From positions 1 through 34,143 of the forward strand of contig CAIVLG010000080.1 in assembly GCA_903906695.1 (NCBI GenBank): DNA of 34,143 nt, in the 5' to 3' direction. Below the pieces are notes generated by a model. It saw only the letters and a list, made by a program, of their open reading frames with translations, was not told where the DNA came from and made no database searches. A program made the position numbers and the translations under genes. Numbering within the stretch: the stretch's first letter is position 1; each line of letters begins with the position of its first letter. Source of the DNA: an uncultured beta proteobacterium. Its GTDB lineage: Bacteria > Pseudomonadota > Gammaproteobacteria > Burkholderiales > Burkholderiaceae_C. Positions 6,143 to 27,718 of this stretch are shown here, one piece after another.

Positions 6143-6219
6143 TCAAGCAATATGCCTATTTGAGCTGGCGAAACGGGCCTCTAGACTTGGTGCCAACGAC
6201 ACTGATTTCGAGATACCAA

Positions 6220-7401: not shown

Positions 7402-7414
7402 TATCCACAGCAGC

Positions 7415-8452: not shown

Positions 8453-8465
8453 TGGGAGCGGTCGC

Positions 8466-9563: not shown

Positions 9564-9606
9564 CGATACGTGTAATCACGCGTGACGTGATCGCAGGAGA
9601 AATTGA

Positions 9607-12325: not shown

Positions 12326-12327
12326 TC

Positions 12328-13149
12328 ATGCAAAAACTCATCATTACCGCTGCCGTAACTGGCGCCGAAGTTACCCACGAACAGCACTCGGCATTGCCAA
12401 TCAGCCCGGATGAGATTGCGATCGCGACCGAGGAATGCGTCAAGGCCGGCGCCTCGATTGTTCACCTGCACGCACGCAACGCCGACGGCAGTCCCACACA
12501 AGACCGGGAAACCTACCGCGAGATCATCGCGGCCGTGCGCAAGCGCTGCGACGTGATTATCCAGGTGTCAACTGGCGGCGCCGTTGGCATGACGCCAATT
12601 GAGCGCTTGGCCCCGCTGTCACTTGCGCCTGAGATGGCTACGCTCTCGATGGGCACGGTCAACTTCGGCGCCGATGTCTTCATGAATCATCCTTCTGACA
12701 TGGAAGATTTCGCACGCACGATGCAGGAACACGGAGTCAAGCCCGAGCTTGAGATTTTTGACAGCGGCATGCTCACGACGGCGAACCGCTGGCTGAAGAA
12801 GGGCATTCTGAAAGGGTCACAGCATTTTGATTTTGTACTGGGCATTCCAGGCGGGATGGCGGCCACTGCGGAAGCGCTGATCTACCTTAAGACCCAATTG
12901 CCAGCGAACTCGACTTGGACCGTCGCCGGCATCGGCAGCGCCCAGTTACAGCTGGGCACACTTGCCATCATCCTCGGAGGCCATGTTCGTGTCGGATTTG
13001 AGGACAACATCTACTACCGCAAGAATGAACTAGCTTCAAGCAACGCTCAACTGGTTGCGCGAATCGCGAAAATCAGCCGGCTACTGGAGAGAGAGGTGGC
13101 TACGCCAAGCGAGGCTCGCGTGATGTTAGGTATCACTGGTAATGCCTGA
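12328..13149 (+). CDS. kce: 3-keto-5-aminohexanoate cleavage enzyme (BKACE family)
   Basis: Zinc-dependent beta-keto acid cleavage enzyme that converts 3-keto-5-aminohexanoate plus acetyl-CoA into acetoacetate and 3-aminobutyryl-CoA. Family hallmarks are KLIITAAVTGAEV at the start, the metal-binding VHLHAR motif, QVSTGGAVGMTPIERLAPLS, MGTVNFG, and the C-terminal GGHVRVGFEDNIYY. From the ATG at 12328 it has 273 residues; a TTG at 12322 is in frame. It is the last gene of the kam operon; the 14-bp gap to the convergent M19 gene holds no clear terminator. CoA-transferase genes (atoDA) for the acetoacetate branch are not in the window. Confidence 0.94.
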   Translation: MQKLIITAAVTGAEVTHEQHSALPISPDEIAIATEECVKAGASIVHLHARNADGSPTQDRETYREIIAAVRKRCDVIIQVSTGGAVGMTPIERLAPLSLAPEMATLSMGTVNFGADVFMNHPSDMEDFARTMQEHGVKPELEIFDSGMLTTANRWLKKGILKGSQHFDFVLGIPGGMAATAEALIYLKTQLPANSTWTVAGIGSAQLQLGTLAIILGGHVRVGFEDNIYYRKNELASSNAQLVARIAKISRLLEREVATPSEARVMLGITGNA

Positions 13150-13163
13150 GCGATTGTGGAAGT

Positions 13164-14156
13164 TCAACTCGGCGCCTTCCAGACTTGTCGTGCCACGCGC
13201 ATCAGGTTGCCGCCCAAAATGGCTTGCAGGTCGCACTCACGATAGCCAAGACGCATCAGCCCCTCCATGATCTCTTCAAGCTGCTCAGGCCGCACGAAGT
13301 TCATGCCGCTGGCAAAGCCCAACTCTGGGGGAAAGATGTGCTTCATCTCCGCCATCCCTGCGTCGATCTCAGCTTGATCAAAAACATAGTCCAGCCCCAA
13401 AGCGACATGCTGCGGCCCAATCAGTTGCACAGCGTAATCCAGATGACGCACGAAGGTCTCGCTGCGGATGTCGTTGTCGCCAAGGAATGGACCAACGCCG
13501 TTGATACCGACCACGCCACCGGTGGCGGCACATTGGCGCATCAATGCGTCCGAGATGTTGCGCGGGTGCTGGCGCACTGCAGTCGGATTGGAGTGCGAGA
13601 AAACAACCGGCCCTTGGGCATAGGCCATTACATCGCGTGCGGTGCGTTCACCGCTATGACTGCAGCACACTAACATGCCAACGCGGTGCATCTCATCCAT
13701 GAGTCGACGACCAAAATCAGTGAGGCCGCTGTCTTCGTCCAGGCAACCACCCGCAGCTGAATTGTTGCGGTTATAGGCTAACAACATCCATCGCACACCC
13801 AGGTCGAAATAGAGCTGTACGAGACTGGCTTGGTCACCCACCGCATTTGCGCCTTCGATGTCAAAGCTCACCGCCAAACGGCCTGTGGCCCGGGCGTGTT
13901 CAATGTCTTCCACTGTCCGCACCAAGACGTATTCACTGGCGCGCTGCGCCAGCCAGTGCCTGAAGCTGGCGATCATGCGCACATGCTGCTCGATGCCGTC
14001 GTCGCCGAAGCCTATGTTCAGCGATATGTGGTCGATGCCCGCGGCTCGGTAGCGCGCCAGTTGGGGCAAGAAGCTCTCATCATGTGGCCGCAGCGGCAAG
14101 CAACCATGGTTGTCCCAGATCAAGCAGCCATCAATGATGTTCCGCGCGGTTTTCAA
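13164..14156 (-). CDS. M19-family (renal dipeptidase-like) membrane dipeptidase homologue
   Basis: Amidohydrolase-fold dipeptidase family of 330 residues; relatives hydrolyse dipeptides, often with a D-residue at the C-terminal position. Likely zinc-site residues are visible: His17 in WDNHGC, bridging Glu101 in FDIEGAN, His167 in CCSHSGE and His188 in FSHSNPTA. The first-strand Asp of the usual HxD pair is Cys19 here. RNISD and GLDYVFD follow the family pattern. No signal peptide is seen, so it is probably cytoplasmic. The frame demands a TTG start at 14156, without a convincing ribosome site, 13 bases after the XRE-cupin gene and probably cotranscribed. It fits the peptide/D-amino-acid block. 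Confidence 0.85.
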   Translation of the reverse strand: MKTARNIIDGCLIWDNHGCLPLRPHDESFLPQLARYRAAGIDHISLNIGFGDDGIEQHVRMIASFRHWLAQRASEYVLVRTVEDIEHARATGRLAVSFDIEGANAVGDQASLVQLYFDLGVRWMLLAYNRNNSAAGGCLDEDSGLTDFGRRLMDEMHRVGMLVCCSHSGERTARDVMAYAQGPVVFSHSNPTAVRQHPRNISDALMRQCAATGGVVGINGVGPFLGDNDIRSETFVRHLDYAVQLIGPQHVALGLDYVFDQAEIDAGMAEMKHIFPPELGFASGMNFVRPEQLEEIMEGLMRLGYRECDLQAILGGNLMRVARQVWKAPS

Positions 14157-14169
14157 GGCAGGGTCGCTG

Positions 14170-14856
14170 TCACAGTGGTGGCGTGTTAGCGCTCACGACA
14201 ACAGCCTCCTCGTCTCCAAGGTTCCGAAAGCGATGCGGCAGGCGGCTCGGGAACAGGTAAGCGTCGCCGGCTTCAAGGATGCGGGTGATACCGCCAACGG
14301 TGACCTCAAGTTTTCCCTTGATAACCACACCGCCTTCGTCCCCTGAGTGACCGTAGGGGGTCTGAGCCGTCTCAGCATTAGGTTCGTAGTGTTCCAATAG
14401 GACCTGCAACGGCCGTCCAGTGAGGTTGTGCCCTACCTGGCGCAGAGACAAGCCCTTACCGCCGACCTCCAACAACTCCTCGTGGCGGAAGAAGATTTGA
14501 GTGTCGCTTTCAGGGTCGAGCGAAAAGAACTCAGAGAGCGTCATGGGTAGGCTGTCCAGAATCTTGCGAAGCGACCCCACTGACGGACTGATCGCATCAC
14601 GCTCTATGCCGCCCACTGTGCCATGAGTCAATCCCGAGCGGCGTGCCAATTCGCGCTGTGACAAGCCAAATAGCTCTCTCACATGCCGAAGCCGTGGGCC
14701 AATTCCTGGCGATGAATCGTCAACTTCGCTTGCCCTTGCAACCTTTCGTTCTTCGGCGGGAGTTTTCACGCCATCTCTCTTCCGGCCTGTAGTCTCAGTG
14801 TTGCCAAGTGCGATTTCAGATTTTTCGGTTTTGCGAGGGCGCTTCGAGGGTTCCAT
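14170..14856 (-). CDS. XRE-family regulator with C-terminal cupin domain
   Basis: A 228-residue regulator. A basic, low-complexity N-terminus is followed by an XRE helix-turn-helix at about 55-105 (LRHVRELFGLSQRELARRSG, then SPSVGSLRKILDSLPMTLSE). A cupin sensor lies at about 155-225 (HSGDEGGVVIKGKLEVTVGG, then GDAYLFPSRLPHRFRN). This is the PuuR-like arrangement often seen with amino-acid, amine and peptide catabolic genes. It is the only regulator inside the peptide/D-Glu block, so it is the best candidate to bind the repeated TGGATANNWTRTTRWCC motif; that link is inference. Confidence 0.88.
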   Translation of the reverse strand: MEPSKRPRKTEKSEIALGNTETTGRKRDGVKTPAEERKVARASEVDDSSPGIGPRLRHVRELFGLSQRELARRSGLTHGTVGGIERDAISPSVGSLRKILDSLPMTLSEFFSLDPESDTQIFFRHEELLEVGGKGLSLRQVGHNLTGRPLQVLLEHYEPNAETAQTPYGHSGDEGGVVIKGKLEVTVGGITRILEAGDAYLFPSRLPHRFRNLGDEEAVVVSANTPPL

Positions 14857-15061
14857 GAGTCGAATTTAGAGTTGTTTAGTGAGTCATGACCAGTTCGAGG
14901 ATTGGCACCATAAACGACAGGTCCACGAGGTCGGAAAACTTCGAGTTTACGCTGATGAGGGTCATCCGGCCGAGCCTGTCGTCTTGCAATCTGGTTAGGC
15001 CTCAAAGCGCTCCAAACTTCGAGTACTGACGCAAGCCGCAAGGTCGCATGACACGCACTTC

Positions 15062-16444
15062 TCAGGCGGCACTGAGCTCGGTGGCCTTGGCCGCCGCGAC
15101 GGTAGTGGCGTAAGTACGCTGGCAGCGCCAGAGCACGGCCGCTGACAGGAGCAGACTGATGCAAGAGGTCCACACTGCGGCCTGCAGCAGTCCGTCTGGC
15201 CTATCTTTGAGATGGTCCGAAATTGCACCAACCAGTGCCGGGCTGAGCGAACTGCACACTGTATTTACCATGATGATGATGGCGACCAGGCGCGCTCGCA
15301 GGTGGCGCGGCGTCATATCTTGAATCGCGTTTGGAAACGTCATCATGCCGCACATGAGGAGGGTCATTTGGATCCCCAGGACAAGAAACAGTTGTGCCGC
15401 GTTGTGTACTGCAAGAAACATGGAGCTGGTGACTGCCGCCAGCAGCGAGCTGCACGTCAAAACGACGATGGGGAAGTGATCACCAAGTCGCCGGCGCAGG
15501 TATTTGGCTAGTAACTGAGTGAACAGCAGGCCAAGCAAGCTGGAAACGAACGCCGCAACGCCCATGAAGTTGCCGACCTGTACCGGCGTTGCTCCCATCT
15601 GGCGCATGGCCACCACTGGGAGAAATGCGCTGATGGCCGATAGCCCAAATAGCAGCAGACCCATGCCGAGGAAGAAGCTGCCGAAGGTACCCCAGTGCGA
15701 TCGAATAAAAGCGAGGACAGACATCTGCGCGTGTGCAAGTGAAGCGGTTTGCTGCAGGTCGCCATTGGGTCGCATGGACGACTTGACCTGCGCTGACATG
15801 CTCATCACCAAGCCGATGACGAGGATGCCTGGCAGGGCTGCGGCAAAGAATGCCAGACGCCAAGTTTCCAACCCCTGCCAGGCCACGGGAAGTGATGGCC
15901 GCAAGATGTCGACGTAGTAAATCAAATAGCCGCAGAGCGAGAGCACCATGCCCTGGCCGAGTCTGCCGCCCACGGCAAAGACGGAGTTGGCAAGGACACG
16001 CTGCCTTCCCTGGAAGAGCTCGGGGATAAGAGCGTAGGCTATCGGCAGCACACCGGCCTCGCCAGCGGCGACCATGGCGCTGGCAAAGAACAGTCCTGTG
16101 AAATTCTGAGCCAGACCGCAGGCCGCCACGGCCAGACTCCAGATTAAGACGCAGATCGATAGCACGACGCGGCGATCCAGGCGATCAGCGAGCCAGGCAA
16201 TCGGGTAGCCTGCTACGGCGGAGAACAGGGCAACACTCAAACCCTGAACAAGACCAATCTGGAAGTCGTTCAGCCCCATTTGCCGGCGAATTGTCTCGAT
16301 CTGTAAAACAAACACCTGACGGTCCAGCACGACGTACAGGCCGATGAAGACCAAAACTCCCAGGCTCCACCAGGCAATTGGTGATGCCCTGTGTGTTGAT
16401 TCGTCTGAACTGGCGCGGTTATCCGCTATGGCTGTGAGGGTCAT
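15062..16444 (-). CDS. MFS transporter (spinster-like)
   Basis: A 460-residue inner-membrane transporter with about twelve hydrophobic segments. The cytoplasmic loop between TM2 and TM3 has the MFS signature (GYPIAWLADRLDRR). TM1 includes FIGLYVVLDRQVFVLQIETI, a style shared with the spinster subgroup. AAGGA lies six bases before the ATG. It is the last gene of the minus-strand run from dgcN, 30 bases after the M32 carboxypeptidase. Substrate cannot be read; a short peptide, amino acid or product exporter would fit the operon. Confidence 0.88.
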   Translation of the reverse strand: MTLTAIADNRASSDESTHRASPIAWWSLGVLVFIGLYVVLDRQVFVLQIETIRRQMGLNDFQIGLVQGLSVALFSAVAGYPIAWLADRLDRRVVLSICVLIWSLAVAACGLAQNFTGLFFASAMVAAGEAGVLPIAYALIPELFQGRQRVLANSVFAVGGRLGQGMVLSLCGYLIYYVDILRPSLPVAWQGLETWRLAFFAAALPGILVIGLVMSMSAQVKSSMRPNGDLQQTASLAHAQMSVLAFIRSHWGTFGSFFLGMGLLLFGLSAISAFLPVVAMRQMGATPVQVGNFMGVAAFVSSLLGLLFTQLLAKYLRRRLGDHFPIVVLTCSSLLAAVTSSMFLAVHNAAQLFLVLGIQMTLLMCGMMTFPNAIQDMTPRHLRARLVAIIIMVNTVCSSLSPALVGAISDHLKDRPDGLLQAAVWTSCISLLLSAAVLWRCQRTYATTVAAAKATELSAA

Positions 16445-16474
16445 GGGGAGTCCTTCGCATGTTCTTTAGGTGCT

Positions 16475-17968
16475 TCACAGGTAGCGACGCTCAAAGTGTC
16501 GCCGCAAACAGTCGGGGTTCAGCCCTTCCCCGGTGATCTGACGCAGCAGGTCTTCAGCGTTAAATTGCGCGCCTACTTGCCATACCCTGGGTTTTAGCCA
16601 GGAGCCCACGCATCCCAGATCACCGGCAGCAATGCGCACATCCAGATCTGGCATGTCTGCCCTCATTGCGGCATTGCATTGTGCTGCGACCATGGCACCC
16701 ACGAGGTAGGTTGGAAAATAGCCGAACATCCCACGAGCCCAGTGCACATCTTGCAGAGGTCCTTGGCTGAGATAGCCGCGTGTGTCGACGCCAAGCAGGC
16801 GCTGCATGCGCTCGTTCCACGCGGCAGGAATGTCATCGACATTGAGTGCGCCATCGATCAATTCAAGTTCAATTTCAGTGCGCAGGATGATGTGAGCCGG
16901 GTAGGTGAGCTCATCGGCCTCGACCCGAATAGGGCCCGGTTGCACGCGCGTCATCATGCGCGAGAGGTTGTGCGGCTCAAAGGCGACCTGTGTTCCAAAA
17001 GCGGTCTTAAGCAAGGGTGATAGCGCCTGCGCGAACGCCAGCGAAGGCGCTAGCTGCCGCTCAAAACTCAGCGCTTGGCCTTCATGCAGAGCGGCGGAGT
17101 GCGGTTCCGTCAGTGGTTGTCCGAGCCACTCGCGCGGCAAATTTTGAAAGTAGCACGCGTGTCCCGCTTCGTGCATAGCCGCCAACAGGGCTGGTAGGAA
17201 CGTGCCCTCTTTGTACCGGGTAGTCAGGCGGACATCCTCCGGAACGCCGCCGGTAAATGGGTGTGCGCTGGCGTCCAACCGCCCGCGCTCAAAGTCGAAA
17301 CCGAGCATGCCGATAATCGTCTGGCAAAGTTGCCGCTGCGTCTCGATCGGAAATGGACCCTCAGGCTGGATGACATCTTCGGTCGACTGCCGATCGCGCG
17401 CCTGTTGAATCAGTCTAGGCAGCCATTGCGTCACCTCACCGAACAAGCTCTTGACGCGCAAGGTTCGCAGCCCCGCTTCATGGCGTTCGAGCAGTGCGTC
17501 ATAGCGTGATAGACCGAGGGCCTGCCCCAACTGTTCGGCTTCGTCTCGCACAGCCGCAACCAGTCGTGTCAGGGGCGCACTGAAGCTCTGCCATTCGTTT
17601 GCCTGTCGAGCTGAGTTCCAAGTTGCCATGGTGGCATCGCTGCACTGCAGGACGCGCGCCGCGGTATCGTTACTGACGGCCTGTGACAGCCGCTGCTCAC
17701 GCTGCATCAGCTGAAGGTTTACTCGTTTCAACTCGCTCAGAGGTTCCCTCTCGGCGAGCCCGAACTGCGCGTGTAAGCTTGGATCATGCTTCAAGTCGCG
17801 CAGCAGCTGAGCGAGTTCCGCCTGTGCTGCAGCGCGTGCTGAGGCCCCTCCTGCAGGCATCTGGGTCATGCGGTCCCAAGTCGCCAGGGCCTGCATATGC
17901 CCCAAGTGGTGCAAGCGCAGTTGGAGCGCAGTCAGCGTGTCATAGGCTGGGGTGACAGTGCCCATCAT
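16475..17968 (-). CDS. M32-family metallocarboxypeptidase (carboxypeptidase Taq type)
   Basis: Cytoplasmic zinc carboxypeptidase of 497 residues, normal for family M32. The zinc motif HEAGH is at 266-270, with the third ligand likely Glu296 in LHEGQALSFE. Other family marks are HPFTGGVPEDVRLTTRY before the zinc motif, and RVEADELTYPAHIILRTEIE and DVHWARGMFGYFPTYLVG after it. The ATG overlaps the stop of the upstream hydrolase gene (TAATG), indicating translational coupling. It would trim C-terminal amino acids from imported peptides. Confidence 0.94.
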   Translation of the reverse strand: MMGTVTPAYDTLTALQLRLHHLGHMQALATWDRMTQMPAGGASARAAAQAELAQLLRDLKHDPSLHAQFGLAEREPLSELKRVNLQLMQREQRLSQAVSNDTAARVLQCSDATMATWNSARQANEWQSFSAPLTRLVAAVRDEAEQLGQALGLSRYDALLERHEAGLRTLRVKSLFGEVTQWLPRLIQQARDRQSTEDVIQPEGPFPIETQRQLCQTIIGMLGFDFERGRLDASAHPFTGGVPEDVRLTTRYKEGTFLPALLAAMHEAGHACYFQNLPREWLGQPLTEPHSAALHEGQALSFERQLAPSLAFAQALSPLLKTAFGTQVAFEPHNLSRMMTRVQPGPIRVEADELTYPAHIILRTEIELELIDGALNVDDIPAAWNERMQRLLGVDTRGYLSQGPLQDVHWARGMFGYFPTYLVGAMVAAQCNAAMRADMPDLDVRIAAGDLGCVGSWLKPRVWQVGAQFNAEDLLRQITGEGLNPDCLRRHFERRYL

Positions 17969-18858
17969 TAGCGGCGCATCGTGAACTTGATGCCACGGGC
18001 AATCCCGGCAGGTGGCACCATGTTGTGGTCATCACCCGCATGTACGACGGTTTCGATCTCGAACTGCGGGCTCGCCAACGTTGCCAACCTTTCTCCCAGT
18101 TCCTGCACGTTCGGGACCATCCGGCACTCTTCGGTCATGTCGCGAAAGTCTTGCTCGCCGGCGGGCAGGCCCGGGACGAAACGAAACGTAGATTCCAGCT
18201 CGCCCACACTGATCAGGGCACGCGCCTTGACCTGACCGGCGCGCACGCGGTCGCTGAAGGCAGCCTCATGGGCCAGCACGGCGCGGTCGTTGTGCCAGAT
18301 CGACGGGCTGATGGCCACGAAGTGCTGGAACGACGCAGTGTGCCGGAACAGTGCGTGCAGCGTGGTCAGCCCGCCCAGGGAATGCCCCATCAGAACTTGC
18401 TCGTGCTTGTTGATGGCCACCATGGCTTCGACACGTGGCTTGACTTCTTCTTCGATGATTCGAAAGTAGTTATCCATACCGCCGAAGCCTTCGGACGGCC
18501 GTGGCATCTTCGCCATGAAGCCTTTCGTCAGGCGTTCTTCGGAGATTGGCGTCGTCAGGTCGATCATGCGCAAGTCCAGTGCCTCGCTGACACTGTCGGT
18601 GGGGTAGCCGATGCCGACCACGACGGGGTCGATGACATCGGGCCAGCGGGCCTGGATGCGCGCCGTATCGACGGCGATGCCGAAGTGCAGGTTACCGTCG
18701 ATCAGGTAAACGACCACGTGGCCCTCCGGTGGTACAGGTCGCCGCGTGGGGATCGAAACAAACAGCCGGTAGGCGCGGCCATTGACCTTCGATGTGAAGT
18801 CGATGATGCGGGCGTTCAGGGCCATCTCGGCGCTGGAGGAGGAAGATGCAATAGTCAT
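17968..18858 (-). CDS. Alpha/beta hydrolase of the esterase D/IroE-like family
   Basis: A 296-residue hydrolase with the putative esterase (PF00756-like) layout. The nucleophile elbow is GHS160LGG. VVYLIDGN marks an early strand, and the likely catalytic His is in the late VHAGDDHN segment. There is no signal peptide. Relatives cleave esters of siderophores or other acyl groups, and some act on peptide-like substrates. In this operon, between dgcA and an M32 carboxypeptidase, it may release an acyl or ester-linked group from the imported substrate; this is inference. GAGAG lies five bases before the ATG. Confidence 0.85.
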   Translation of the reverse strand: MTIASSSSSAEMALNARIIDFTSKVNGRAYRLFVSIPTRRPVPPEGHVVVYLIDGNLHFGIAVDTARIQARWPDVIDPVVVGIGYPTDSVSEALDLRMIDLTTPISEERLTKGFMAKMPRPSEGFGGMDNYFRIIEEEVKPRVEAMVAINKHEQVLMGHSLGGLTTLHALFRHTASFQHFVAISPSIWHNDRAVLAHEAAFSDRVRAGQVKARALISVGELESTFRFVPGLPAGEQDFRDMTEECRMVPNVQELGERLATLASPQFEIETVVHAGDDHNMVPPAGIARGIKFTMRR

Positions 18859-18916
18859 GCGTGCTCTCGATTGAGGTGAAGAAGTGGAATCTGTATAGGA
18901 TCATGGATTTGACGGA

Positions 18917-19900
18917 TCAACCCCAGAGTTCAGATGAAGGGGGGTGTACCTCTCCGTCAACGTAGCTCATGGCGAATTGACGGTCGCCCCGTTGGAGCAA
19001 GGGACCATCAAGGTCAGTCCAATTTGCCCACTGCGCGACCAGGAAAGCGGGCGCCATGCCCAGTGAAGTCCCACACATATTTCCTACCATCACGTCCAGA
19101 CCGAGCTCGCGCGCCTGGCGCACCATGGCCAAAGCCTCGGTGAGGCCGCCACACTTGTCGAGTTTGATATTGACGGCTTGGTACCGGCCAGCCAGCGCAA
19201 GAAGTGATCCACGATCAGTGCAGGACTCATCTGCAGCAAGTGGTATTGGCGAACGCAAGCGGCCCAGGACTGCGTCTTCATGGCGAGGCAGTGGTTGCTC
19301 GATCAGTTCTACGCCTGCCGCTAGCAGTTGGGGCAAGAGAGCTTCCAGTAGATGTATGTCCCAGGCTTGATTGGCGTCGATGATCAGGCGCACCTGTGGC
19401 AGTTCGTCACGCACAATTTCAACAATATCGATGTGCCGATGCCCATCTGCCTTGATCTTTATTAGCGGCATATTCCTGGCAGCGCGCGCACGCTGACGCG
19501 TCTCTTCTGCCGACCCCAGTCCGATGGTGAAGGAGGTCAGAACCGGCTGAAGTTGCGCCAGGCCGGCTGATTGCCAGGCCGGTACGCCATTGCGTTTGGC
19601 TCGCAGGTCCCAGAGGGCGCAATCCACGGCATTCCTGGCACCACCCGATGGCAATAGGCAGTTGAGCACGTCGCCAGCGATGTCGGCATGCAAATTCTTC
19701 AATATCACCTCAATCTGTGCGGCCATGCTCGCTGGCGTTTCGCCGTCATAGTCAACGCCTGCTGCTTCAGCACGTCCGGACACGCCATTTTGGTCCGTCA
19801 GTGTGATGGTCAACAATGGAAGTTCGGTCATCGTCTCACGGGAGATTTCGAATGGCTCTTTCATTGGCCAGTGTTCGATGGTGCTGTGCAGCGTGAGCAT
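18917..19900 (-). CDS. dgcA: Dipeptide-epimerase-family racemase, probably N-acetyl-D-glutamate racemase
   Basis: Enolase-superfamily enzyme of 327 residues. The catalytic KxK is K148-I-K150. Metal ligands are Asp175 in IIDANQAW, Glu201 in ELIEQPLP and Asp224 in AADESCTD. The opposite-face lysine is near 246 (NIKLDKCGG), and the C-terminal GNMCGTSLGMAPA completes the pattern. By sequence alone it could be an L-Ala-D/L-Glu epimerase. Its overlap (TAATG) with a DUF1611 gene is the arrangement described for DgcN-DgcA, where D-glutamate is N-acetylated and then racemised to the L-form, so I favour that role. The frame is open 49 codons upstream, but that part lies inside the DUF1611 gene; the ATG at 19900 fits the family N-terminus. 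Confidence 0.82.
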   Translation of the reverse strand: MLTLHSTIEHWPMKEPFEISRETMTELPLLTITLTDQNGVSGRAEAAGVDYDGETPASMAAQIEVILKNLHADIAGDVLNCLLPSGGARNAVDCALWDLRAKRNGVPAWQSAGLAQLQPVLTSFTIGLGSAEETRQRARAARNMPLIKIKADGHRHIDIVEIVRDELPQVRLIIDANQAWDIHLLEALLPQLLAAGVELIEQPLPRHEDAVLGRLRSPIPLAADESCTDRGSLLALAGRYQAVNIKLDKCGGLTEALAMVRQARELGLDVMVGNMCGTSLGMAPAFLVAQWANWTDLDGPLLQRGDRQFAMSYVDGEVHPPSSELWG

Positions 19901-20904
19901 TATCCGATCAGCTCGCGTGCGATGGCGTCGACACCACCTCGCATCGGATCGCACACGGGCAGTCCTAGCTCGGCCTGGAACGCGCAGCGATATTGTTGCC
20001 AGACAGCTTCGTCTAGAGAGGATGAATTGACGGCCACGCCGACACAACGCACCTGTGGGTTGGTCAGTCGCCCGGCCTCAACATAGCGGTCAATCGCCGT
20101 TTGCAGACTTGGCAGCGTGATATGGGGGTAGCCCTCGATTGTCTCGCGCGAGGGGTCGTGACATAGCACCAATGCATCGGGTTGCGATCCGTGCAGCAAA
20201 CCCAGTGTGACGCCTGCGTAGGCGGGATGGAACAGCGCGCCCTGACCCTCAATGACATCCCAATGGTCTACATCATTAGCTGGGGACAGCAGTTCTGCCG
20301 CTCCGGCTATGAAATCGGCAACTACCGCGTCAATTGCAATGCCACTGCCTGCGATCATGATGCCGGTCTGGCCAGTGGCGCGAAAGCTGGCCTTGGCACC
20401 CATGTTCTGCATCGCATTCGTAAGCGCCAGGGCGGTGTACTTTTTGCCCAGAGCACAATCGGTGCCTACTGTGAGGAGGCGTTTGCCGCTGCGTTTGATG
20501 CCACTGCCGGTGGGCAGAGGAAGATTGTTGTGGCGGATGTTGATCAACCTGAGACCATTGCGAGCGGCTGCGGCGCTGAGCTCGGTAAAACTCTCCAATC
20601 GAGTGTGCATGCCGCTGATCACATCCATGCCAGCGTCCAGGGCCTCAACTAGCAGGGGTAACCATGTCGCTGGTATCTGGCCGCCGACTGCCGCAACGCC
20701 AATAACCAAGGACGCAGCGCCCTGAGCAGCAGCCTCGCCCGGGCTCAAGTGCCGCAAGCCTAGGCTGATAGTGGCGCCAGGCAATCGGCATTCGCCGATG
20801 ACGTCAGATGCGCACCAATCACGCAGGCCAAAGCCGGTTTTGGCATCGGACTTGAGTGTGACGTCTCCAAGGAAGACCAGGTAGGGCTTGCGCAATGTGT
20901 GCAT
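19900..20904 (-). CDS. dgcN: DUF1611-family protein, probable D-glutamate N-acetyltransferase
   Basis: A 334-residue protein of the DUF1611 family. It has an N-terminal Rossmann-like domain (YLVFLGDVTLKSDAKTGFGL) and a P-loop-like motif LTVGTDCALGKKYTALAL near the middle. ATGQTGIMIAGSGIAIDAVV and VIEGQGALFHPAYAGVTLGL follow. Members linked to a dipeptide-epimerase gene have been characterised as DgcN, which acetylates D-glutamate in a D-Glu utilisation pathway. The ATG at 20904 is preferred. A longer frame to 21039 would run through the putative operator at 20939-20955 and adds residues unlike the family. It is the first gene of the minus-strand operon and is divergent from the S12 hydrolase. 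Confidence 0.8.
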   Translation of the reverse strand: MHTLRKPYLVFLGDVTLKSDAKTGFGLRDWCASDVIGECRLPGATISLGLRHLSPGEAAAQGAASLVIGVAAVGGQIPATWLPLLVEALDAGMDVISGMHTRLESFTELSAAAARNGLRLINIRHNNLPLPTGSGIKRSGKRLLTVGTDCALGKKYTALALTNAMQNMGAKASFRATGQTGIMIAGSGIAIDAVVADFIAGAAELLSPANDVDHWDVIEGQGALFHPAYAGVTLGLLHGSQPDALVLCHDPSRETIEGYPHITLPSLQTAIDRYVEAGRLTNPQVRCVGVAVNSSSLDEAVWQQYRCAFQAELGLPVCDPMRGGVDAIARELIG

Positions 20905-20938: not shown

Positions 20939-20955
20939 TGGATAGTATGTTGTCC
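20939..20955 (-). promoter_or_regulatory. Putative operator upstream of dgcN (copy 1 of 4)
   Basis: TGGATAGTATGTTGTCC on the + strand, an imperfect palindrome 34 bp before the dgcN start. Its reverse complement differs from copy 4 upstream of the TonB receptor at only one of 17 positions. It fits the consensus TGGATANNWTRTTRWCC shared by four promoter sites in this block. Confidence 0.65.
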
Positions 20956-21156
20956 AATAAATCTGATTCTAGTGAATGCTCTGCCTGCGATGGGTTTGCA
21001 TTGCCGGTCGTGGAAACATTGATTCACCCACCACTGCATCTCAGAAGTTCCTGAGATGCATTGGGAATTTCGAACATTCCTGAGCGAAGACGCCGAAGTT
21101 CCACATGTTTGTGCGTCCTGAATTTAGCATTCTTACAATGCATGGGTAGAATATTG

Positions 21157-21173
21157 TGGATACGATATTGACC
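21157..21173 (+). promoter_or_regulatory. Putative operator upstream of S12 hydrolase (copy 2 of 4)
   Basis: TGGATACGATATTGACC, 21 bp before the ATG of the S12 hydrolase, fits TGGATANNWTRTTRWCC. It sits at the far side of the same divergent intergenic region as copy 1, so each divergent gene has its own site close to its start. Confidence 0.55.
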
Positions 21174-21194
21174 AATCACTGATAAGGCGTCTCT

Positions 21195-22514
21195 ATGCCA
21201 GACATCGAATCGCTTCCCGACGATCTTGCTGAACGTCTGCAGTTGAAGGCCAATACTTTCGGCATTCCTGGCTTGGCCGTGGTGTTGGTGTCGACCGGTC
21301 GTCAGGCAATTTGGGTACACGGTGAGGATGCGCCGGGGTCTGGGCGGCCAGTGACAGCCCAGACCTGGTTTTCTGTAGCCTCGGTAGGCAAGCAAGCGAC
21401 TGCCGTCGCCGTCCTGGATTTGGCGCAGCGGGGGCTTGTCGACTTAGCAGCACCAATTGGGCGCTACCTGACGGATGTGCCATCGTCCTGGTCCGATAGA
21501 AGTGTTCTTTCGTTGCTGCGGCACACGAGTGGATTGCCTGAATACTTGAGTCACACCGAGGCGCACGATGTGCCCGAGCGGCGCGAAGCGTTCATGCGAG
21601 CCTTTGCCGGCTTGCAGCCCGCCTGGAATGAGGGCGATGCGTGGATGTACAGCAACACCAACTACATTCTGTTGGGCTTCCTGATCGCCCAGTTATCTGG
21701 TGCCAGCTATGGTGTGGCGCTGCATCGCTTCTTTGAAAGGGTGGGCTGCAAGGGATTGGCTGTATCCAGTCCGACTTGGGCGCGTGCAGCGAATGCGGCA
21801 GGTGCTGGTGAGACTGCCTTGGATCAGGCAAGTTTGCTACGCCAAGTGATCGGTGACGGAGACGTTTCGTTCACGGCGGATGGCGCGGCGGCGTGGCTAG
21901 GATTGATGCTGGGTGACGCCGCGCTGGACGCCCAACACCGGGATGTAATGTTTGCTGCAGCAACGCTGAAGACGGGTCGCCCTTCGCCATATGGCTGTGC
22001 CTGGTTTGTGGATCGACTCGGCGATATGCCGATCTGCCACCATGCCGGGCACTATGACGGCTGGACGGCCATGGCCTATGTCGCCCCAGCCATGGGGTGC
22101 GCCGCGATGGTGATGTGCAACCTGGCCCCTGGCAATACACGAGCGGTTCGATACCTCGCGCAGATGGCACTTGAGGGCTTTGCGCCGGGCTCAACACCAC
22201 TCTCACTGGATTTGCAACCCGATGATGCGCCGGTCCTCACTGCTCGCGCGCGTGCACAGTTGCTGCGCCGAGGTGAACTCGACCCTTCTTTTTTTGCTGA
22301 AGAGTTGACACGTGTGGCGGAGCGTGGGGGTGCAGTACGCAATGTCATCAATCTCTGGTCTGGGCAGGAGCCGCAGGTCTTTGGACTGGTTGAGTCTCAC
22401 GGCTACCCCACGCATCTGCTGCGCCGCTACCGGGTGTCGTATCCGGAGCGTGTTGAGCATCTCTTGGTTGGAACGACGCCGACCGGACAGATCTATTGGG
22501 CTTGGCCCCTCTGA
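21195..22514 (+). CDS. S12-type serine hydrolase (beta-lactamase fold, D-aminopeptidase/esterase class)
   Basis: A 439-residue penicillin-binding-protein-fold hydrolase. The SxxK motif is S63-V-G-K66 in FSVASVGKQATAVAVLDL, and the YxN motif is Y152-S-N154 in WMYSNTNYILLGFLI. LLRHTSGLPEY is typical of the family, and a late HHAGHYDGW segment replaces the usual HSG/KTG box. No signal peptide is seen, so it is not a periplasmic beta-lactamase. Family members hydrolyse D-residue-containing peptides, esters or linear cyclopeptide products such as linearised microcystin (MlrB). The neighbouring dgcNA pair, TonB receptor and M20 peptidase favour a D-residue peptide substrate. AAGG lies seven bases before the ATG. 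Confidence 0.87.
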   Translation: MPDIESLPDDLAERLQLKANTFGIPGLAVVLVSTGRQAIWVHGEDAPGSGRPVTAQTWFSVASVGKQATAVAVLDLAQRGLVDLAAPIGRYLTDVPSSWSDRSVLSLLRHTSGLPEYLSHTEAHDVPERREAFMRAFAGLQPAWNEGDAWMYSNTNYILLGFLIAQLSGASYGVALHRFFERVGCKGLAVSSPTWARAANAAGAGETALDQASLLRQVIGDGDVSFTADGAAAWLGLMLGDAALDAQHRDVMFAAATLKTGRPSPYGCAWFVDRLGDMPICHHAGHYDGWTAMAYVAPAMGCAAMVMCNLAPGNTRAVRYLAQMALEGFAPGSTPLSLDLQPDDAPVLTARARAQLLRRGELDPSFFAEELTRVAERGGAVRNVINLWSGQEPQVFGLVESHGYPTHLLRRYRVSYPERVEHLLVGTTPTGQIYWAWPL

Positions 22515-22560
22515 ACCCGGCAGAGTTCGCCAAGTGTTTTCTCTTTTTGTTGCGCTTTGC

Positions 22561-22577
22561 GGACAATAACCTATCCA
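22561..22577 (+). promoter_or_regulatory. Putative operator upstream of TonB receptor (copy 3 of 4)
   Basis: GGACAATAACCTATCCA, the reverse orientation of TGGATANNWTRTTRWCC, lies 114 bp upstream of the receptor ATG. With copy 4 it makes a pair 74 bp apart, about seven helical turns, which would allow looping or cooperative binding. Confidence 0.55.
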
Positions 22578-22634
22578 TTCATCAGAATTAATCTGAAATA
22601 TTAGTTGTGATCTGCGGGTTTACGATATATTGAC

Positions 22635-22651
22635 GGATAACATACTATCCA
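22635..22651 (+). promoter_or_regulatory. Putative operator upstream of TonB receptor (copy 4 of 4)
   Basis: GGATAACATACTATCCA, 40 bp before the receptor ATG, has perfect GGATA/TATCC arms around six bases. It differs at one position from the reverse complement of copy 1 in front of dgcN. The position suits a repressor site over or just downstream of the promoter. Confidence 0.65.
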
Positions 22652-22691
22652 ACACAATAAATTCGTACCTTATCAAACTGGAGAAAGCAGC

Positions 22692-24824
22692 ATGAAACAT
22701 AGTCTGGCAAAGTGGTATCTCACATCCGTAGCATCAGCCGTCACTGCCATGTCTGCGCTAGCGCAGACCGAGGCACCGGAGCGCACACAACTCGATAAGG
22801 TTGAGGTCACGGCTTCCAAGCGCACACAGTTTGTGGTGGACGTGCCATATTCGGTCAGCGTCATCGGCGGCGCAGAGATCGCCGACCGCGGCGTCACCGA
22901 CATCCAACAGATGCAGTCGGTGGTGCCATCGCTGTTCATCAACCAGAACGCGCCGGGTGCCAGCCGGATCCAGTTGCGCGGCCTGTCCCAGGGTGTGGGT
23001 TATGGCGCTGCCTTGGTGGGGACCTACCTCGACGAAATATCGCTGAACATGCCAGACGCCCAGCGCTCGCTCGACGTACCGCTGGTGGACATGCAGCGCA
23101 TTGAGGTGCTTCGAGGTCCGCAAGGCACCCTCTACGGCGATGGCTCGATGGGCGGTACCATTCGTTTCATCACACGCGCGCCGAAACTGGACAAGTTCGA
23201 AGCTCAGGTCGAGGCGGGCTATGGGCAGCTTAGCGGCGGTGGCTCAGGCTGGCGGGCAAACGGTGTCGTGAATGTGCCGCTTTCTACCGGAGTTGCAGGG
23301 TTGCGCCTGGTGGCGGGTCATGAAGACTTGCCGGGATGGGTCGACAACAGCGTCACTGGCGCCCAGGACATCAATAGCGCCAAGCGTGACTACCTGCGCG
23401 GCAAACTGCTGGTGAAACCGAGCGAAAACGTCGACGTGACAGCGATGTTTTTTCACACGGAGACTGACACCAAGAACAACTCTGGATCATCGGCCGACCG
23501 CACCATCGCGTCTTACATCGCGTCGCCCACCAACGATAAGACTGACTTGTTTAATCTGGTGGTCAATGCCGACTTGGGGGGTATCCACCTGATCAGTTCC
23601 ACCGGATACGTGGATCGCAGGATCGATACCACAGCAGAGCTGAGCGCAATTTACGCAGGTTATCCCTTCAAGACGCTAGTAATGCCCAAGCCCACTTCGG
23701 GTGGCGCGTATCGGCAGGACATGAGTCAGAAGATCACGACTGAGGAACTTCGCCTGGAGTCTGACGACAAGGGCCCGCTTACCTGGACTGCGGGGGCCTA
23801 CTACCGCAAAACCGATACCCATTCCGTCACGTCAGACGTGTGGACCGATGCGACTTTCCGGTTGCAGGGTGGCTACGATGGAAACGCCCCCACGAACGTC
23901 CGCCAGACAGCGCTGTTCGGCGAGTTGACCTATGCCTTGGCGCCGCTATGGACAGTGACAGGCGGCCTGCGCTCGTTCCGCGAAGACGCGGAGAACGTCG
24001 GCACAAAGTTGCCGTCGGGCTTCGCACCGCCCGGAACGCCTTCGACAATCTACAACGACCAAGCCTCGTACAGTGCTAACACGCCGCGGCTAAACTTGCT
24101 GTGGCGATACGACCCCAAGAGTGCTCTGTACCTCACGACGTCCAAGGGTTTCCGCAGCGGCGGTTTCAACGCCACCCAAACACCGCGCGAATACGGCCCA
24201 GAAGACATCTTGACTACTGAGATCGGAAATCGCGGATCCGTACTGGGCGACCGCCTGCAATATGAAGTGGCGATCTATCACAGCAGGTACAACAATGTCC
24301 AGGCACAGGACTTGGCGCCTGGCTGTACACCGGCAACGTGCCAAGCTCTCACAGTGAATAGCGGCCAGGCCTCCGGTCCCGGGATGGACATCACACTATC
24401 GGCAGCGCTCACGAAGTCACTGACCCTTGACGCATCGCTGGGCTACTCGGACCTGGTTTACGACGTGAATACGGCCGAGCGCAACAAGGGTGATCCACTT
24501 AACTACGTACCTAAGATGACGGCTTCGGTCTCTCTGAGTCAACGTTTCCAATGGGCGCCTGCCATGCCTGGCATGGTCCGGCTGGATTACCAGCATTCTG
24601 ACCCGACGAAGATGATCATCCGCAATCAAGGCGTGAATGTCAGTAGCGACGCCGTCGACACCCTCAATGCGCGTATCGGTCTGGAGATGCCGAAGTGGCA
24701 GGTTTACCTCGAAGGCAGGAATCTCACCAACTCGAACAGCATCACCTTCCCGGGCATCTTCGGATTACCCGACTTTCGCGTTGCGCCCCGATGGCTGGGT
24801 GTGACGGCGCGGACCCAGTTCTGA
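22692..24824 (+). CDS. TonB-dependent outer-membrane receptor
   Basis: A 710-residue outer-membrane importer. The signal peptide runs to about residue 25 (ending SAVTAMSALAQT). The TonB box/plug region (LDKVEVTASKRTQFVVDVPY, then ELRGP-like IEVLRGPQGTLYGDGSMGG) is followed by a 22-strand-type barrel that ends in a C-terminal Phe (TARTQF), as usual. The plug motif GGTIRFITRAP is of the FecA/oligosaccharide-peptide type, but ligand cannot be read. Two copies of the shared operator lie upstream. It precedes the M20 peptidase by 56 bases, so it is probably the entry port for the substrate that the peptidases then process. Confidence 0.95.
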   Translation: MKHSLAKWYLTSVASAVTAMSALAQTEAPERTQLDKVEVTASKRTQFVVDVPYSVSVIGGAEIADRGVTDIQQMQSVVPSLFINQNAPGASRIQLRGLSQGVGYGAALVGTYLDEISLNMPDAQRSLDVPLVDMQRIEVLRGPQGTLYGDGSMGGTIRFITRAPKLDKFEAQVEAGYGQLSGGGSGWRANGVVNVPLSTGVAGLRLVAGHEDLPGWVDNSVTGAQDINSAKRDYLRGKLLVKPSENVDVTAMFFHTETDTKNNSGSSADRTIASYIASPTNDKTDLFNLVVNADLGGIHLISSTGYVDRRIDTTAELSAIYAGYPFKTLVMPKPTSGGAYRQDMSQKITTEELRLESDDKGPLTWTAGAYYRKTDTHSVTSDVWTDATFRLQGGYDGNAPTNVRQTALFGELTYALAPLWTVTGGLRSFREDAENVGTKLPSGFAPPGTPSTIYNDQASYSANTPRLNLLWRYDPKSALYLTTSKGFRSGGFNATQTPREYGPEDILTTEIGNRGSVLGDRLQYEVAIYHSRYNNVQAQDLAPGCTPATCQALTVNSGQASGPGMDITLSAALTKSLTLDASLGYSDLVYDVNTAERNKGDPLNYVPKMTASVSLSQRFQWAPAMPGMVRLDYQHSDPTKMIIRNQGVNVSSDAVDTLNARIGLEMPKWQVYLEGRNLTNSNSITFPGIFGLPDFRVAPRWLGVTARTQF

Positions 24825-24880
24825 AAACGGCAAAGGGCCTCGTGTTTTGCGAGGCGCTGGCCTTGTGAAGGCGTGAAGCC

Positions 24881-26038
24881 ATGGATGTTCACATCGCATC
24901 AAGGGATGACGCACTAACCGAAGAAATCCTCGCCGGCATCCGGACCTGGATCGAGATTGAAAGTCCAACGGATGTTCCCGAAGCCATGGGTCGCATGGCG
25001 ACGCGGGTTCACGCAGATTACGAGGCCATTGGCCTGAGGGTTGAACGCATCTCGGCTAGCAACGGAATGGGCGACCATTTGTTGGTCACCGCCGATGCGC
25101 ACTGCCCACCGGAAGCGGCCAGTGGCAAGGGCATTCTGGTGCTCAGTCACATGGATACTGTGCACCCCATGGGCACTCTGATTGGCCCCTTACCCTATCG
25201 CGTGGAGGGCAATCGCGCCTATGGGCCAGGCGCCGAGGACATGAAGGGGGGTACCTATCTCGCGCTTGCGGCCGTTCGGCAGATCCAGCGCGAGGGGGGA
25301 CGAACCTTTTTGCCAATCCGACACTTGATCGTGTCAGACGAGGAAATGGGCAGCGGCACATCTCGTGAACACATCGAACGCGAGGCGCAGCGAGCCAAGT
25401 ATGTGCTCGTGACCGAGCCAGCCCGCTCGGGCGGAAAGATTGTGACCGCACGCAAGGGGTGCGGAGATTTTAGAGTCACCGTGAAGGGTTTGGCGGCTCA
25501 CGCGGGTGTCGAGCATCACCTCGGGCGCAATGCCATCTGCGAGATGGCTCGCCAGATTCTGGCGATCGAAGCGATGACAGATTACAGCCGCGATCTCACT
25601 GTGAGTGTCGGCACGATCAGGGGGGGCACACGCTCGAACGTTGTACCGGACGAGGCAGTCGTCGAGGTGGACGTCCGTGTGCCGAATCAGGAACTCGGAC
25701 GGGAGATTACGCGGCGCATGCTCGCCCTGAAGGCCTATGACCCTGGCTGCAGCGTGATCGTGGAGGGCGGCATTCATCGACCGGGCTACGAAAAGACACC
25801 GGGTATTGCGGCGCTGTTTGAACACGCCAAGTTACTGGCAGCCGAGATCGGCTTCGACTTGCAGGACCTCAAGACCGGCGGTGGCAGCGATGGGAATTTC
25901 ACTGCAGGCTATGCACCCACCCTGGATGGACTTGGCGTCGATGGCGATGGCGGCCATACCCTGGAGGAACGTCTGTACATCTCGTCCATTTTGCCGCGCA
26001 TGCGCCTGCTGAAGCGTCTGATGGAGACTCTCTCGTAA
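24881..26038 (+). CDS. M20-family metallopeptidase (glutamate carboxypeptidase-like)
   Basis: A 385-residue dinuclear-zinc amidohydrolase. Zinc ligands are visible: His90 and Asp92 in LSHMDTVHP, bridging Asp120 in GPGAEDMKGG, catalytic Glu154 with Glu155 in VSDEEMGSG, and a C-terminal GGSDGN segment. The middle dimerisation domain has RKGCGDFRVTVKGLAAHAGV and SVGTIRGGTRSNVVPDEAVV. The pattern resembles carboxypeptidase G2, which removes C-terminal Glu, and related N-acyl amino-acid hydrolases. There is no signal peptide, so a cytoplasmic location is likely. GAAGG lies nine bases before the ATG. It lies between the TonB receptor and the sox operon on the same strand. Confidence 0.9.
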   Translation: MDVHIASRDDALTEEILAGIRTWIEIESPTDVPEAMGRMATRVHADYEAIGLRVERISASNGMGDHLLVTADAHCPPEAASGKGILVLSHMDTVHPMGTLIGPLPYRVEGNRAYGPGAEDMKGGTYLALAAVRQIQREGGRTFLPIRHLIVSDEEMGSGTSREHIEREAQRAKYVLVTEPARSGGKIVTARKGCGDFRVTVKGLAAHAGVEHHLGRNAICEMARQILAIEAMTDYSRDLTVSVGTIRGGTRSNVVPDEAVVEVDVRVPNQELGREITRRMLALKAYDPGCSVIVEGGIHRPGYEKTPGIAALFEHAKLLAAEIGFDLQDLKTGGGSDGNFTAGYAPTLDGLGVDGDGGHTLEERLYISSILPRMRLLKRLMETLS

Positions 26039-26101: not shown

Positions 26102-27385
26102 ATGATTGGCAAATGGAAATTGAGAACTCGATATTCAGCATGGAACCTCCTGACAGCGGCGCTCAAGGGCCACAGCGACTGGACTCCAGCGTGGCGCGAT
26201 GCCGAACCCAAATCACGTTACGACGTCATCGTGATCGGCGGTGGCGGCCATGGGCTGGCAACGGCCTACTATCTTGCAAAGAATCACGGATTCACCAATG
26301 TCGCCTTGATTGAGAAAGGCTGGATTGGTGGCGGCAATACAGGGCGCAATACAACGATTGTTCGATCCAACTACCTGTTCCCGCAAAGCGCACAACTGTA
26401 CGACTTCTCGGTCAAGCTTTACGAAGACCTCTCACAAGAGCTGAACTTCAACATCATGTTCAGCCAGCGCGGAATCATTACCCTGGCCCACTCGCGACAT
26501 GACCTCCACAACGTATCGCGATGGGCCAACGCCATGCGCTTTAACGGAATCGATGCAGACATTCTAGATGCCCGACAGGTTCAGGAACTAGCACCCCGGC
26601 TGAACTTTGGACCTGAAGCGAGATTTCCCATATTGGGGGGAATGATTCAGAGACGGGCGGGTGCTGCCAGGCACGACGCTGTGGCGTGGAGCTACGCGCG
26701 CGGCGCTTCGGCACTGGGCGTGGACATTATTCAGAACTGCGCTGTTACCGGGTTTATCAAGCAGGATGGAAGAGTCGTTGGAGTAAAGACCAATCACAAA
26801 GGCACAGCGGGTGAAATCCGGGCGGAGAAAGTGGCCATGGCCGTTGCCGGCCATAGCAGCCACGTAGCAGCCATGGCAGGGCTCAGTCTTCCGGTGACGA
26901 GTTATACGTTGCAGGCCATGGTGAGTGAACCGGTAAAGCCGGTTCTGGACACTGTCGTGCTGTCTCCTGCAGTGGGGGCGTACTGGAGCCAGTCAGACAA
27001 AGGCGAGGTAGTCATTGGCGGTGCACTGGATCACTTTCCGTCTTACGCCCAGCGTGGGAGTTTCGGTATCACGCAGCAAGTTCTTGCCGCCACTGTCGAG
27101 ATGTTTCCTTCATTTGGCCGCTTGCGCTTGATGCGTCAATGGGGCGGCATTGTTGACATCGTGCATGACTCCAGTCCGATCATTGGCGCGACCCCCGTGC
27201 CAGGACTCTATATCAACTGTGGCTGGGGAACCGGTGGCTTTAAGTCCATCCCGGTGGGTGGGTGGACCTTGGCCCATGTACTTGCGACGGGAAAGAACCA
27301 CGAACTCGCAGAGCCCTTTCAACTGGATCGTTTTCGCACCGGACGGCTGATAGACGAAGCTGCAGCCGCTGGCATCGCGCACTAG
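26102..27385 (+). CDS. soxB: Sarcosine oxidase beta subunit
   Basis: FAD/FMN flavoprotein subunit (427 residues) of heterotetrameric sarcosine oxidase, which oxidises N-methylglycine to glycine and formyl/methylene-THF plus H2O2. The N-terminal dinucleotide motif is DVIVIGGGGHGLATAYYLA. NTGRNTTIVRSNYLFP and RRAGAARHDAVAWSYARGAS follow; the latter His corresponds to the residue carrying covalent FMN in the family. CGWGTGGFKSIPVGGW closes the protein. It is the first gene of a complete soxBDAG run. The ATG at 26102 gives the usual RYSAWNLL N-terminus. Substrates other than sarcosine, such as other N-methyl amino acids, are possible given the peptide-degrading neighbours. Confidence 0.95.
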   Translation: MIGKWKLRTRYSAWNLLTAALKGHSDWTPAWRDAEPKSRYDVIVIGGGGHGLATAYYLAKNHGFTNVALIEKGWIGGGNTGRNTTIVRSNYLFPQSAQLYDFSVKLYEDLSQELNFNIMFSQRGIITLAHSRHDLHNVSRWANAMRFNGIDADILDARQVQELAPRLNFGPEARFPILGGMIQRRAGAARHDAVAWSYARGASALGVDIIQNCAVTGFIKQDGRVVGVKTNHKGTAGEIRAEKVAMAVAGHSSHVAAMAGLSLPVTSYTLQAMVSEPVKPVLDTVVLSPAVGAYWSQSDKGEVVIGGALDHFPSYAQRGSFGITQQVLAATVEMFPSFGRLRLMRQWGGIVDIVHDSSPIIGATPVPGLYINCGWGTGGFKSIPVGGWTLAHVLATGKNHELAEPFQLDRFRTGRLIDEAAAAGIAH

Positions 27386-27397
27386 AGGGAACAAGAC

Positions 27398-27685
27398 ATG
27401 ATGAAAATACATTGTCCCCAGTGTGGTGATCGCCCGGAAAGCGAGTTCCATTGCGGCGGAACCTCCCATATTCAACGCCCACCGCTGGAATGCAGCGACG
27501 AGGAATGGGGCAGGTATATGTTTGAACGCGAAAACCCCAGCGGATTGCACGCTGAGAGGTGGCGCCACACCTTTGGTTGCAGCCAGTGGTTCAACATGAT
27601 CCGCAACACGATAACGCACGACATTGAGGCGGTGTACGCCATGACAGACCCAAAGCCTGAAGTGGCTGAGGGGGATATGCGATGA
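27398..27685 (+). CDS. soxD: Sarcosine oxidase delta subunit
   Basis: Small zinc-binding subunit (95 residues). The start MMKIHCPQCGDRPESEFHCG shows the CxxC zinc pair, and the middle WGRYMFERENPSGLHAERW and FGCSQWFNMIRNTITHDI are typical of SoxD. It is preceded by AGGGA and lies 12 bases after soxB. Its last codons are duplicated: a 29-bp tandem repeat covers the soxD stop and the original soxA start. Confidence 0.94.
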   Translation: MMKIHCPQCGDRPESEFHCGGTSHIQRPPLECSDEEWGRYMFERENPSGLHAERWRHTFGCSQWFNMIRNTITHDIEAVYAMTDPKPEVAEGDMR

Positions 27686-27718
27686 GTGGAGTGGCTGAGG
27701 GGGATATGCGATGAGTGG
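27661..27718 (+). repeat. 29-bp perfect tandem duplication at the soxD/soxA junction
   Basis: Bases 27661-27689 and 27690-27718 are identical. The unit spans the end of soxD, its TGA and the overlapping ATG. The first ATG (27682) now opens a ten-codon frame (MSGVAEGDMR) that stops at 27712-27714, overlapping the second ATG at 27711 from which soxA is read. Both stop-start junctions keep the ATGA form. Confidence 0.9.

Follow-up and report, generated by a model that had tools for sequence, protein, structure and literature searches.

XRE-cupin regulators that act on genes close to their own offer the nearest points of comparison for the locus considered here. According to the accessible text of PMC7901475, the XRE-cupin proteins studied in Pseudomonas are inhibitors of neighbouring genes, the motifs known for some of them are palindromes, and their release by metabolites of the pathway is a working idea. 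PsdR of Pseudomonas aeruginosa is an XRE-cupin repressor of mdpA and dppA3 (PMC7901475, PMC10965056), and the available portion of PMC10965056 describes it as governing dipeptide genes on TTAAGnnnnnCTTAA and also reports an action on lasR. DbuR represses D-amino-acid catabolism, and according to the part of PMC12724383 at hand its footprint extends over the predicted -10 element and includes a palindrome of 20 bp. A literature search among open-licence papers, made by topic and not by operator letters, returned no description of the operator reported in this study; the letters themselves were sought in PMC12565409 only, and are absent from the accessible part of its text.

The window, by which we mean the whole stretch of 34,143 nucleotides that was analysed, is one complete contig of the genome of an uncultured beta proteobacterium (4,423,704 bases in 289 contigs). 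Its block of interest consists of a minus-strand run of dgcN, dgcA, esterase, M32, MFS, XRE-cupin and M19 genes spanning 13164-20904, and a plus-strand run of S12, TonB receptor and M20 genes spanning 21195-26038 (Table 1). The dgcN product is a close homologue of DgcN that falls below the cut-off of model NF041892 (445 against 480 bits) with 326 of 326 model positions matched, and the dgcA product reaches the cut-off of the racemase model NF042940 (400 against 400 bits as printed). As the latter match begins at residue 54, the true start of dgcA probably lies near 19890. The XRE-cupin protein has an HTH_3 domain at residues 56-110 and a Cupin_2 domain at residues 154-222, both above cut-off, and its position downstream of dgcN on the same strand had been missed in the first-pass annotation. 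Taken together the cluster looks built for the uptake and breakdown of peptides that would contain D-glutamate.

Table 1. Genes of the block and operator sites, in window coordinates (matrix scores are from the matrix built on relatives' sites).
Feature	Position	Strand	Remark
M19 dipeptidase	13164..14156	-	13 bp after XRE-cupin gene
XRE-cupin regulator, HTH_3 + Cupin_2, PuuR-like; proposed repressor	14170..14856	-	
MFS transporter	15062..16444	-	family model matches
M32 carboxypeptidase	16475..17968	-	family model match
Bes/IroE-like serine esterase	17968..18858	-	family model matches
dgcA, N-acetyl-D-Glu racemase model	18917..20047	-	score at model cut-off
dgcN, DUF1611	19900..20904	-	445 bits; DgcN model cut-off 480
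Operator 1, palindrome upstream of dgcN	20939..20956		pattern site 20939-20955 (+); matrix score 25.4
Operator 2, upstream of S12 hydrolase	21157..21174		pattern site 21157-21173 (+); matrix score 18.9
S12 serine hydrolase, D-peptidase / beta-lactamase fold	21195..22514	+	family model matches
Operator 3, distal TonB receptor site	22560..22577		pattern site 22561-22577 (-); matrix score 19.2
Operator 4, proximal TonB receptor site	22634..22651		pattern site 22635-22651 (-); matrix score 23.8
TonB-dependent outer-membrane receptor	22692..24824	+	family model matches
M20 hydrolase	24881..26038	+	56 bp after receptor gene; no own site

The four sites proposed on first inspection all fit the pattern TGGATANNWTRTTRWCC with 0 mismatches at the positions where they had been placed, and copies 1 and 4 show, as had been claimed, a single difference over 17 positions when put in the same orientation. 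Their spacing to the start codons (34 bases for dgcN, 21 for S12, 114 and 40 for the TonB receptor) likewise agrees with the earlier description of sites within about 115 bp of a start, three of them within 41 bp. A scatter of equally good matches across the genome had been named beforehand as a refuting outcome and is absent: at no more than one mismatch the genome contains the four window sites only, compared with 1 match for the reversed control pattern, and all four fall less than 8 kb from the XRE-cupin gene. The pattern is specific at high stringency only, and this specificity is mostly lost at up to three mismatches, where the genome yields 436 matches against 226 with the reversed control. 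The window itself yields 9 matches at that stringency against a shuffle mean of 2.81, a test which is partly circular because the pattern was derived from the sites and two of the sites are counted on both strands.

Either strand of sites 1 and 4 fits the pattern, with a shift of one base, and the element is therefore a palindrome, (T)GGATAnnATnnTATCC(A), a property overlooked in the first-pass annotation. A palindromic site is what is expected for a dimeric regulator; for local XRE-cupin regulators the expectation is a palindrome of about 15-25 bp close to the promoter. The symmetric pattern TGGATANNATNNTATCC, at no more than one mismatch, finds sites 1 and 4 alone in the genome, and at two mismatches it recovers sites 2 and 3 amid scattered matches (22 rows in total; 6 with the control). 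One half of the palindrome is less perfect in these two.

A search of GTDB genomes with the XRE-cupin protein as query, which depends on shared short peptides and can miss loci, gave 45 loci, which comprise 12 close loci at 57-76% identity and 33 distant loci at 44-54%. The close loci come from Rubrivivax, Ideonella, Paucibacter and other Burkholderiales or beta-proteobacteria, together with one Steroidobacteraceae and one Nevskiaceae; L048 belongs to Ideonella sp. A 288, a culturable relative. The site is present at no more than one mismatch in 11 of the 12 close loci and in 0 of the 33 distant ones (Fisher p about 1e-9), although the distant loci are also without the target genes and for that reason this contrast alone cannot part the regulator from its targets. 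A matrix was trained on 25 sites from the relatives' loci, and both this matrix, which was not built from the window sites, and a later locus outside the training set, L126, provide less circular tests than the pattern does. With the relatives' matrix the top four places of the window are the four sites (25.4, 23.8, 19.2 and 18.9) and the fifth scores 8.3; the maximum was 15.1 over 40 order-1 resampled windows and 17.2 over the 572 kb of the 33 distant control loci. Sites in L126 precede dgcN (30.3), M20 (32.1) and the TonB gene (20.0, with a second at 15.0), and its S12/XRE-cupin interval contains nothing above a matrix score of 12. Over the roughly 59 Mb of genome sequence from which the 12 close loci come, the palindrome occurs at no more than one mismatch in 28 places, compared with 1 for the reversed control, and 26 of these are in the cluster: 25 in XRE-cupin loci and one in L105, a second contig piece that carries M20 and a soxB-type gene. 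Two other candidates in the window, one at 21143-21159 that overlaps site 2 and one at 24386 within the TonB gene, were dropped on matrix scores of only 6.7 and 8.3, respectively.

The positions of the sites in the relatives are also informative, most of them falling 5 to 53 bp ahead of a dgcN, S12, TonB or M20 start. At dgcN the site lies 5 or 6 bp before the start codon in nine of the ten close loci with an adjoining dgcN, the distance being 154 bp in L051; TonB sites of the close loci lie 27-53 bp before the start, and M20 sites, in the close loci and L105, 13-45 bp before it. A good site occurs between the divergent S12 and XRE-cupin genes in L041, L042, L046 and L050. This interval holds only a weak to fair site (19.4, more than one mismatch) in L045, the exception among the close loci, and weak sites in L043, L044, L047 and L049 (11.7 to 15.5), and in L048 it holds no site above a score of 11; the remote dgcN of L052 (51%) has no site upstream. 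The order of the genes has changed between the window and its relatives. The XRE-cupin gene stands before dgcN in the relatives and after the MFS gene in the window, and M20, which follows the receptor gene in the window, does not stand behind TonB on the same strand in the relatives, where its orthologs carry an operator of their own and where M19 faces M20 in L041 and L047. Despite this the putative operators follow the promoters, and it is their recurrence at the same promoters, even after the gene order has changed, that supports the original suggestion of one co-regulated set.

The best TonB match in L041 has 37% identity, yet its site is strong (23.9), and that of L049 has 38% identity and is preceded by a weak site (15.2); the receptors of both loci are probably not orthologs of the window receptor. 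In L051 a site lies between a permease-like gene, compared by eye, and dgcN, and in L052 one lies between an amino-acid permease gene (Pfam) and an amidohydrolase gene. Both amidohydrolases have an Amidohydro_3 domain (Pfam) and may be read as D-aminoacylase-like. An aminotransferase-like gene occurs between S12 and TonB in L126 (11901-13115, Aminotran_1_2) and, by eye, in L046 (7255-8442); the corresponding interval of the window is too short to hold one.

The conserved palindrome of 16-18 bp co-occurs with the XRE-cupin gene, and only a comparison made at dgcN separates the regulator from the target, since the distant XRE loci lack the target genes. For this comparison the family to which the Ideonella genome belongs was sampled with 399 genomes, which were searched at thresholds of E 1e-45 for the XRE-cupin protein and E 1e-60 for dgcN; to judge by the genome labels, both searches covered one and the same draw. 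A close XRE-cupin ortholog is held by 2 of the 399 genomes, and 16 genomes hold 17 dgcN loci. The operator is found at dgcN in both of the loci with an adjoining close XRE-cupin gene (30.7 and 30.3) and in 0 of the 15 others (Fisher p 0.007), where the positive arm consists of two loci and absence of the regulator means none at E 1e-45 or better. The best matrix score in the 300 bp upstream of these 15 dgcN genes is 5.3, and they include a second copy of dgcN, the other copy in that genome having both the XRE-cupin gene and the operator. Alignment of the proteins points the same way at one position in a helix of the HTH domain, presumably the one for recognition: the 14 operator-type proteins (window, L041-L052 and L126) all have H there, and 29 of the 33 distant XRE proteins have N. 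The remaining four distant proteins have H (L074, L076 and L077) or S (L078), and all four loci are without a site at no more than one mismatch. This single residue divides the operator-type proteins from most of the other XRE proteins. The dgcN-locus split and the helix residue both strengthen the case, put forward in the first-pass annotation, for the XRE-cupin protein as the likely binder.

A sister genome, G016, might be taken as a counter-example, as it has all four sites and no XRE-cupin match; it counts on neither side, however, as the contig ends at window 18493, before the XRE-cupin gene would be reached, in an assembly that is 82% complete. The same genome has two further places at one mismatch outside the block. 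Plasmid searches returned 613 records with a match to the XRE protein, all below 60% identity and none a close copy, and 998 records with a match to S12, none covering 80% of the query.

Site 1 overlaps a predicted minus-strand promoter of dgcN (20956-20928), where it takes in the -35 and some of the spacer. Site 2 begins 4 bp past the predicted -10 of a promoter at 21124-21152 (plus strand), and site 4 takes in the last part of the -35 and the greater share of the spacer of a promoter predicted at 22630-22658 (plus strand). All three promoters come from a weak scan, in which 1.2 were expected. These positions, and those close ahead of the start codons in the relatives, favour repression as the probable mode of action. 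It is very probable, judging from sequence comparisons, that the four sites are operators of the XRE-cupin protein encoded at 14170-14856, which as a dimer would repress three units until released by a ligand of the pathway. The dimer would bind (T)GGATAnnATnnTATCC(A) over or just past the promoters of the three units. The first of these would run from dgcN through dgcA, esterase and M32 to MFS and might extend by read-through to the XRE-cupin gene and M19; the second would be the S12 hydrolase and the third the TonB receptor with M20. Free of ligand, the protein would block transcription. The cupin barrel would be filled by a pathway metabolite, for which D-glutamate, N-acetyl-D-glutamate and a peptide containing D-Glu are plausible candidates, and the dimer would leave the DNA, so that the genes for uptake and breakdown would be switched on together. 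The presence of dgcN-dgcA, S12, M19 and M20 is what suggests that the inducer could be D-glutamate, its acetylated form or a D-Glu peptide. The 205-bp gap between the MFS and XRE-cupin genes contains none of the 25 best matrix places of the window, and autoregulation in the window would therefore need read-through from the dgcN promoter.

It could also be supposed that the sites belong to a regulator encoded elsewhere, for example of the LysR or GntR type, and that the XRE-cupin protein controls something else. Exact copies of the 17-base palindromic pattern do exist in 9 other genomes among 399 of the order (G408, G075 and seven more), where the surrounding loci of about 3 kb contain, within about 1.5 kb, none of the 27 window query proteins, and another protein may thus read a similar palindrome elsewhere. 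For the cluster itself such an arrangement seems improbable to us. L042 and L048 are free of gaps larger than about 430 bp from the soxA-type gene to the MFS gene, and XRE-cupin is the sole regulator among their matched genes; the extra gene in the S12/TonB interval is an aminotransferase in L126 (Pfam) and looks alike in L046 by eye; and the operator is missing from each surveyed dgcN locus that lacks a close XRE gene (0 of 15). A single DeoR gene was identified in the window (3970-4770); it is located outside the block and has been retained by G017, a congener that is without the block.

If the XRE-cupin protein is accepted as the binder, it might still act as an activator, or as an activator at some sites and a repressor at others. 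Site 3, at 114 bp before the TonB start, could suit an upstream activator, and the XRE-cupin protein NceR is named as an activator in the title of a reference in the accessible part of PMC12724383. The dgcN site at 5 or 6 bp before the start in nine of ten relatives' loci is hard to square with activation, however; sites 1 and 4 overlap predicted promoters, and the Pseudomonas members covered by the available text of PMC7901475 are inhibitors; activation is in our judgement quite unlikely. Similarity arising by chance or through a repeat, with no regulatory meaning, would draw on the fact that the pattern was taken from the sites themselves and that matches with three mismatches are common across the genome. 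The genome scans, the relatives' matrix and the specificity in the 12 relative genomes led us to reject it. The promoters of orthologs carry the sites again in L126 and in 11 of the close XRE loci, and the rest of those genomes is nearly free of them, which leaves it with practically no credibility.

Comparison within the genus gives some indication of how the block was obtained. In G017 the left flank of the window and the right-flank aldolase gene are about 1.1 kb apart, blastn finds no counterpart in this genome to the roughly 26.8 kb of window 4774-31574, and about 5.8 kb separates its matches to window 1115 and 1281. Besides the genome of the window, 1 of 59 other genomes drawn from the genus has an S12 ortholog (G016, which keeps all four sites). 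The block has a patchy distribution in the genus and is probably an acquired catabolic one. Adjoining the regulon is a lysine degradation set at 6160-13149 (KamA-type aminomutase, KDD, KamB reactivase, lysine 5,6-aminomutase alpha and beta, KAL and KCE), upstream of which the matrix finds no operator in the window. On the other side, 26102-31173 encodes sarcosine-oxidase-type soxB and soxA, the latter just under the model cut-off, and a protein of 180 amino acids that has no family match at the thresholds used; a soxB-type gene and M20 share an operator region in L042, L046 and L105. Identity of the Bes-like esterase (17968-18858) to its counterparts varies, reaching 84-89% for some relatives and 76% for L049 but only 63-66% for others, while dgcA in all these loci remains within 59-63%; from this uneven identity the cluster looks like a mosaic.

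The analysis supplies a putative binding site and a regulon for a subgroup of XRE-cupin proteins, and it links genes for D-glutamate salvage (dgcN-dgcA), D-peptidase-type and dipeptidase functions and TonB uptake as one probably inducible pathway. The operator can also be used as a tag for further genes of the pathway, and here it flagged M20 and the receptors of low identity. A wider reading, which we regard as doubtful, is that the operator marks a movable and self-contained regulon for a specific environmental D-Glu peptide, in which the outer-membrane receptor would be swapped for unrelated ones and the operator and regulator kept fixed. Such a peptide would perhaps have ester bonds or N-methyl residues, a guess that is based on the presence of the Bes-like esterase and sarcosine-oxidase-type genes. 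If this were true, the switch rather than the receptor would define the pathway.

When the locus is set against the described systems, PsdR is similar in several respects. Both proteins have the XRE plus cupin architecture, and PsdR acts through a palindrome to repress nearby genes of peptide uptake and dipeptidase function (accessible text of PMC7901475 and PMC10965056); the XRE-cupin gene of the window, compared by architecture and context, precedes an M19 dipeptidase gene. The letters of the operators differ, however, TTAAGnnnnnCTTAA being that given for PsdR in the text at hand and GGATAnnATnnTATCC the one conserved here, and the regulon proposed for the window further includes dgcN-dgcA and the genes of an S12 hydrolase and a TonB receptor. 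DbuR, from the part of PMC12724383 available, shares the XRE-cupin type, a target in D-amino-acid catabolism and a palindrome at the promoter, but it has other palindrome letters and catabolic genes and acts on one operon where the present system would have three units. Among NCBIfam models it is that of PuuR, the putrescine-responsive XRE-cupin repressor of Escherichia coli, which fits the window protein best, over residues 48-226 of 228. The score against this model, NF007408, is 136.7 with a cut-off of 211 bits, and the window protein is therefore not PuuR itself; by the models run there is no puu gene among the identified neighbours of the regulator. The DgcN-DgcA pathway of D-glutamate is matched by dgcN and dgcA side by side and by the DgcA model at its cut-off. 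The described pathway has a LysR-type regulator, DgcR, whereas control here is probably exerted by the XRE-cupin protein. The putative targets of the window protein are few and lie near its own gene, which is a trait of local XRE-cupin regulators. The kind of system is a known one, that of a probable local XRE-cupin repressor like PsdR or DbuR, an ordinary local switch with an operator of its own.
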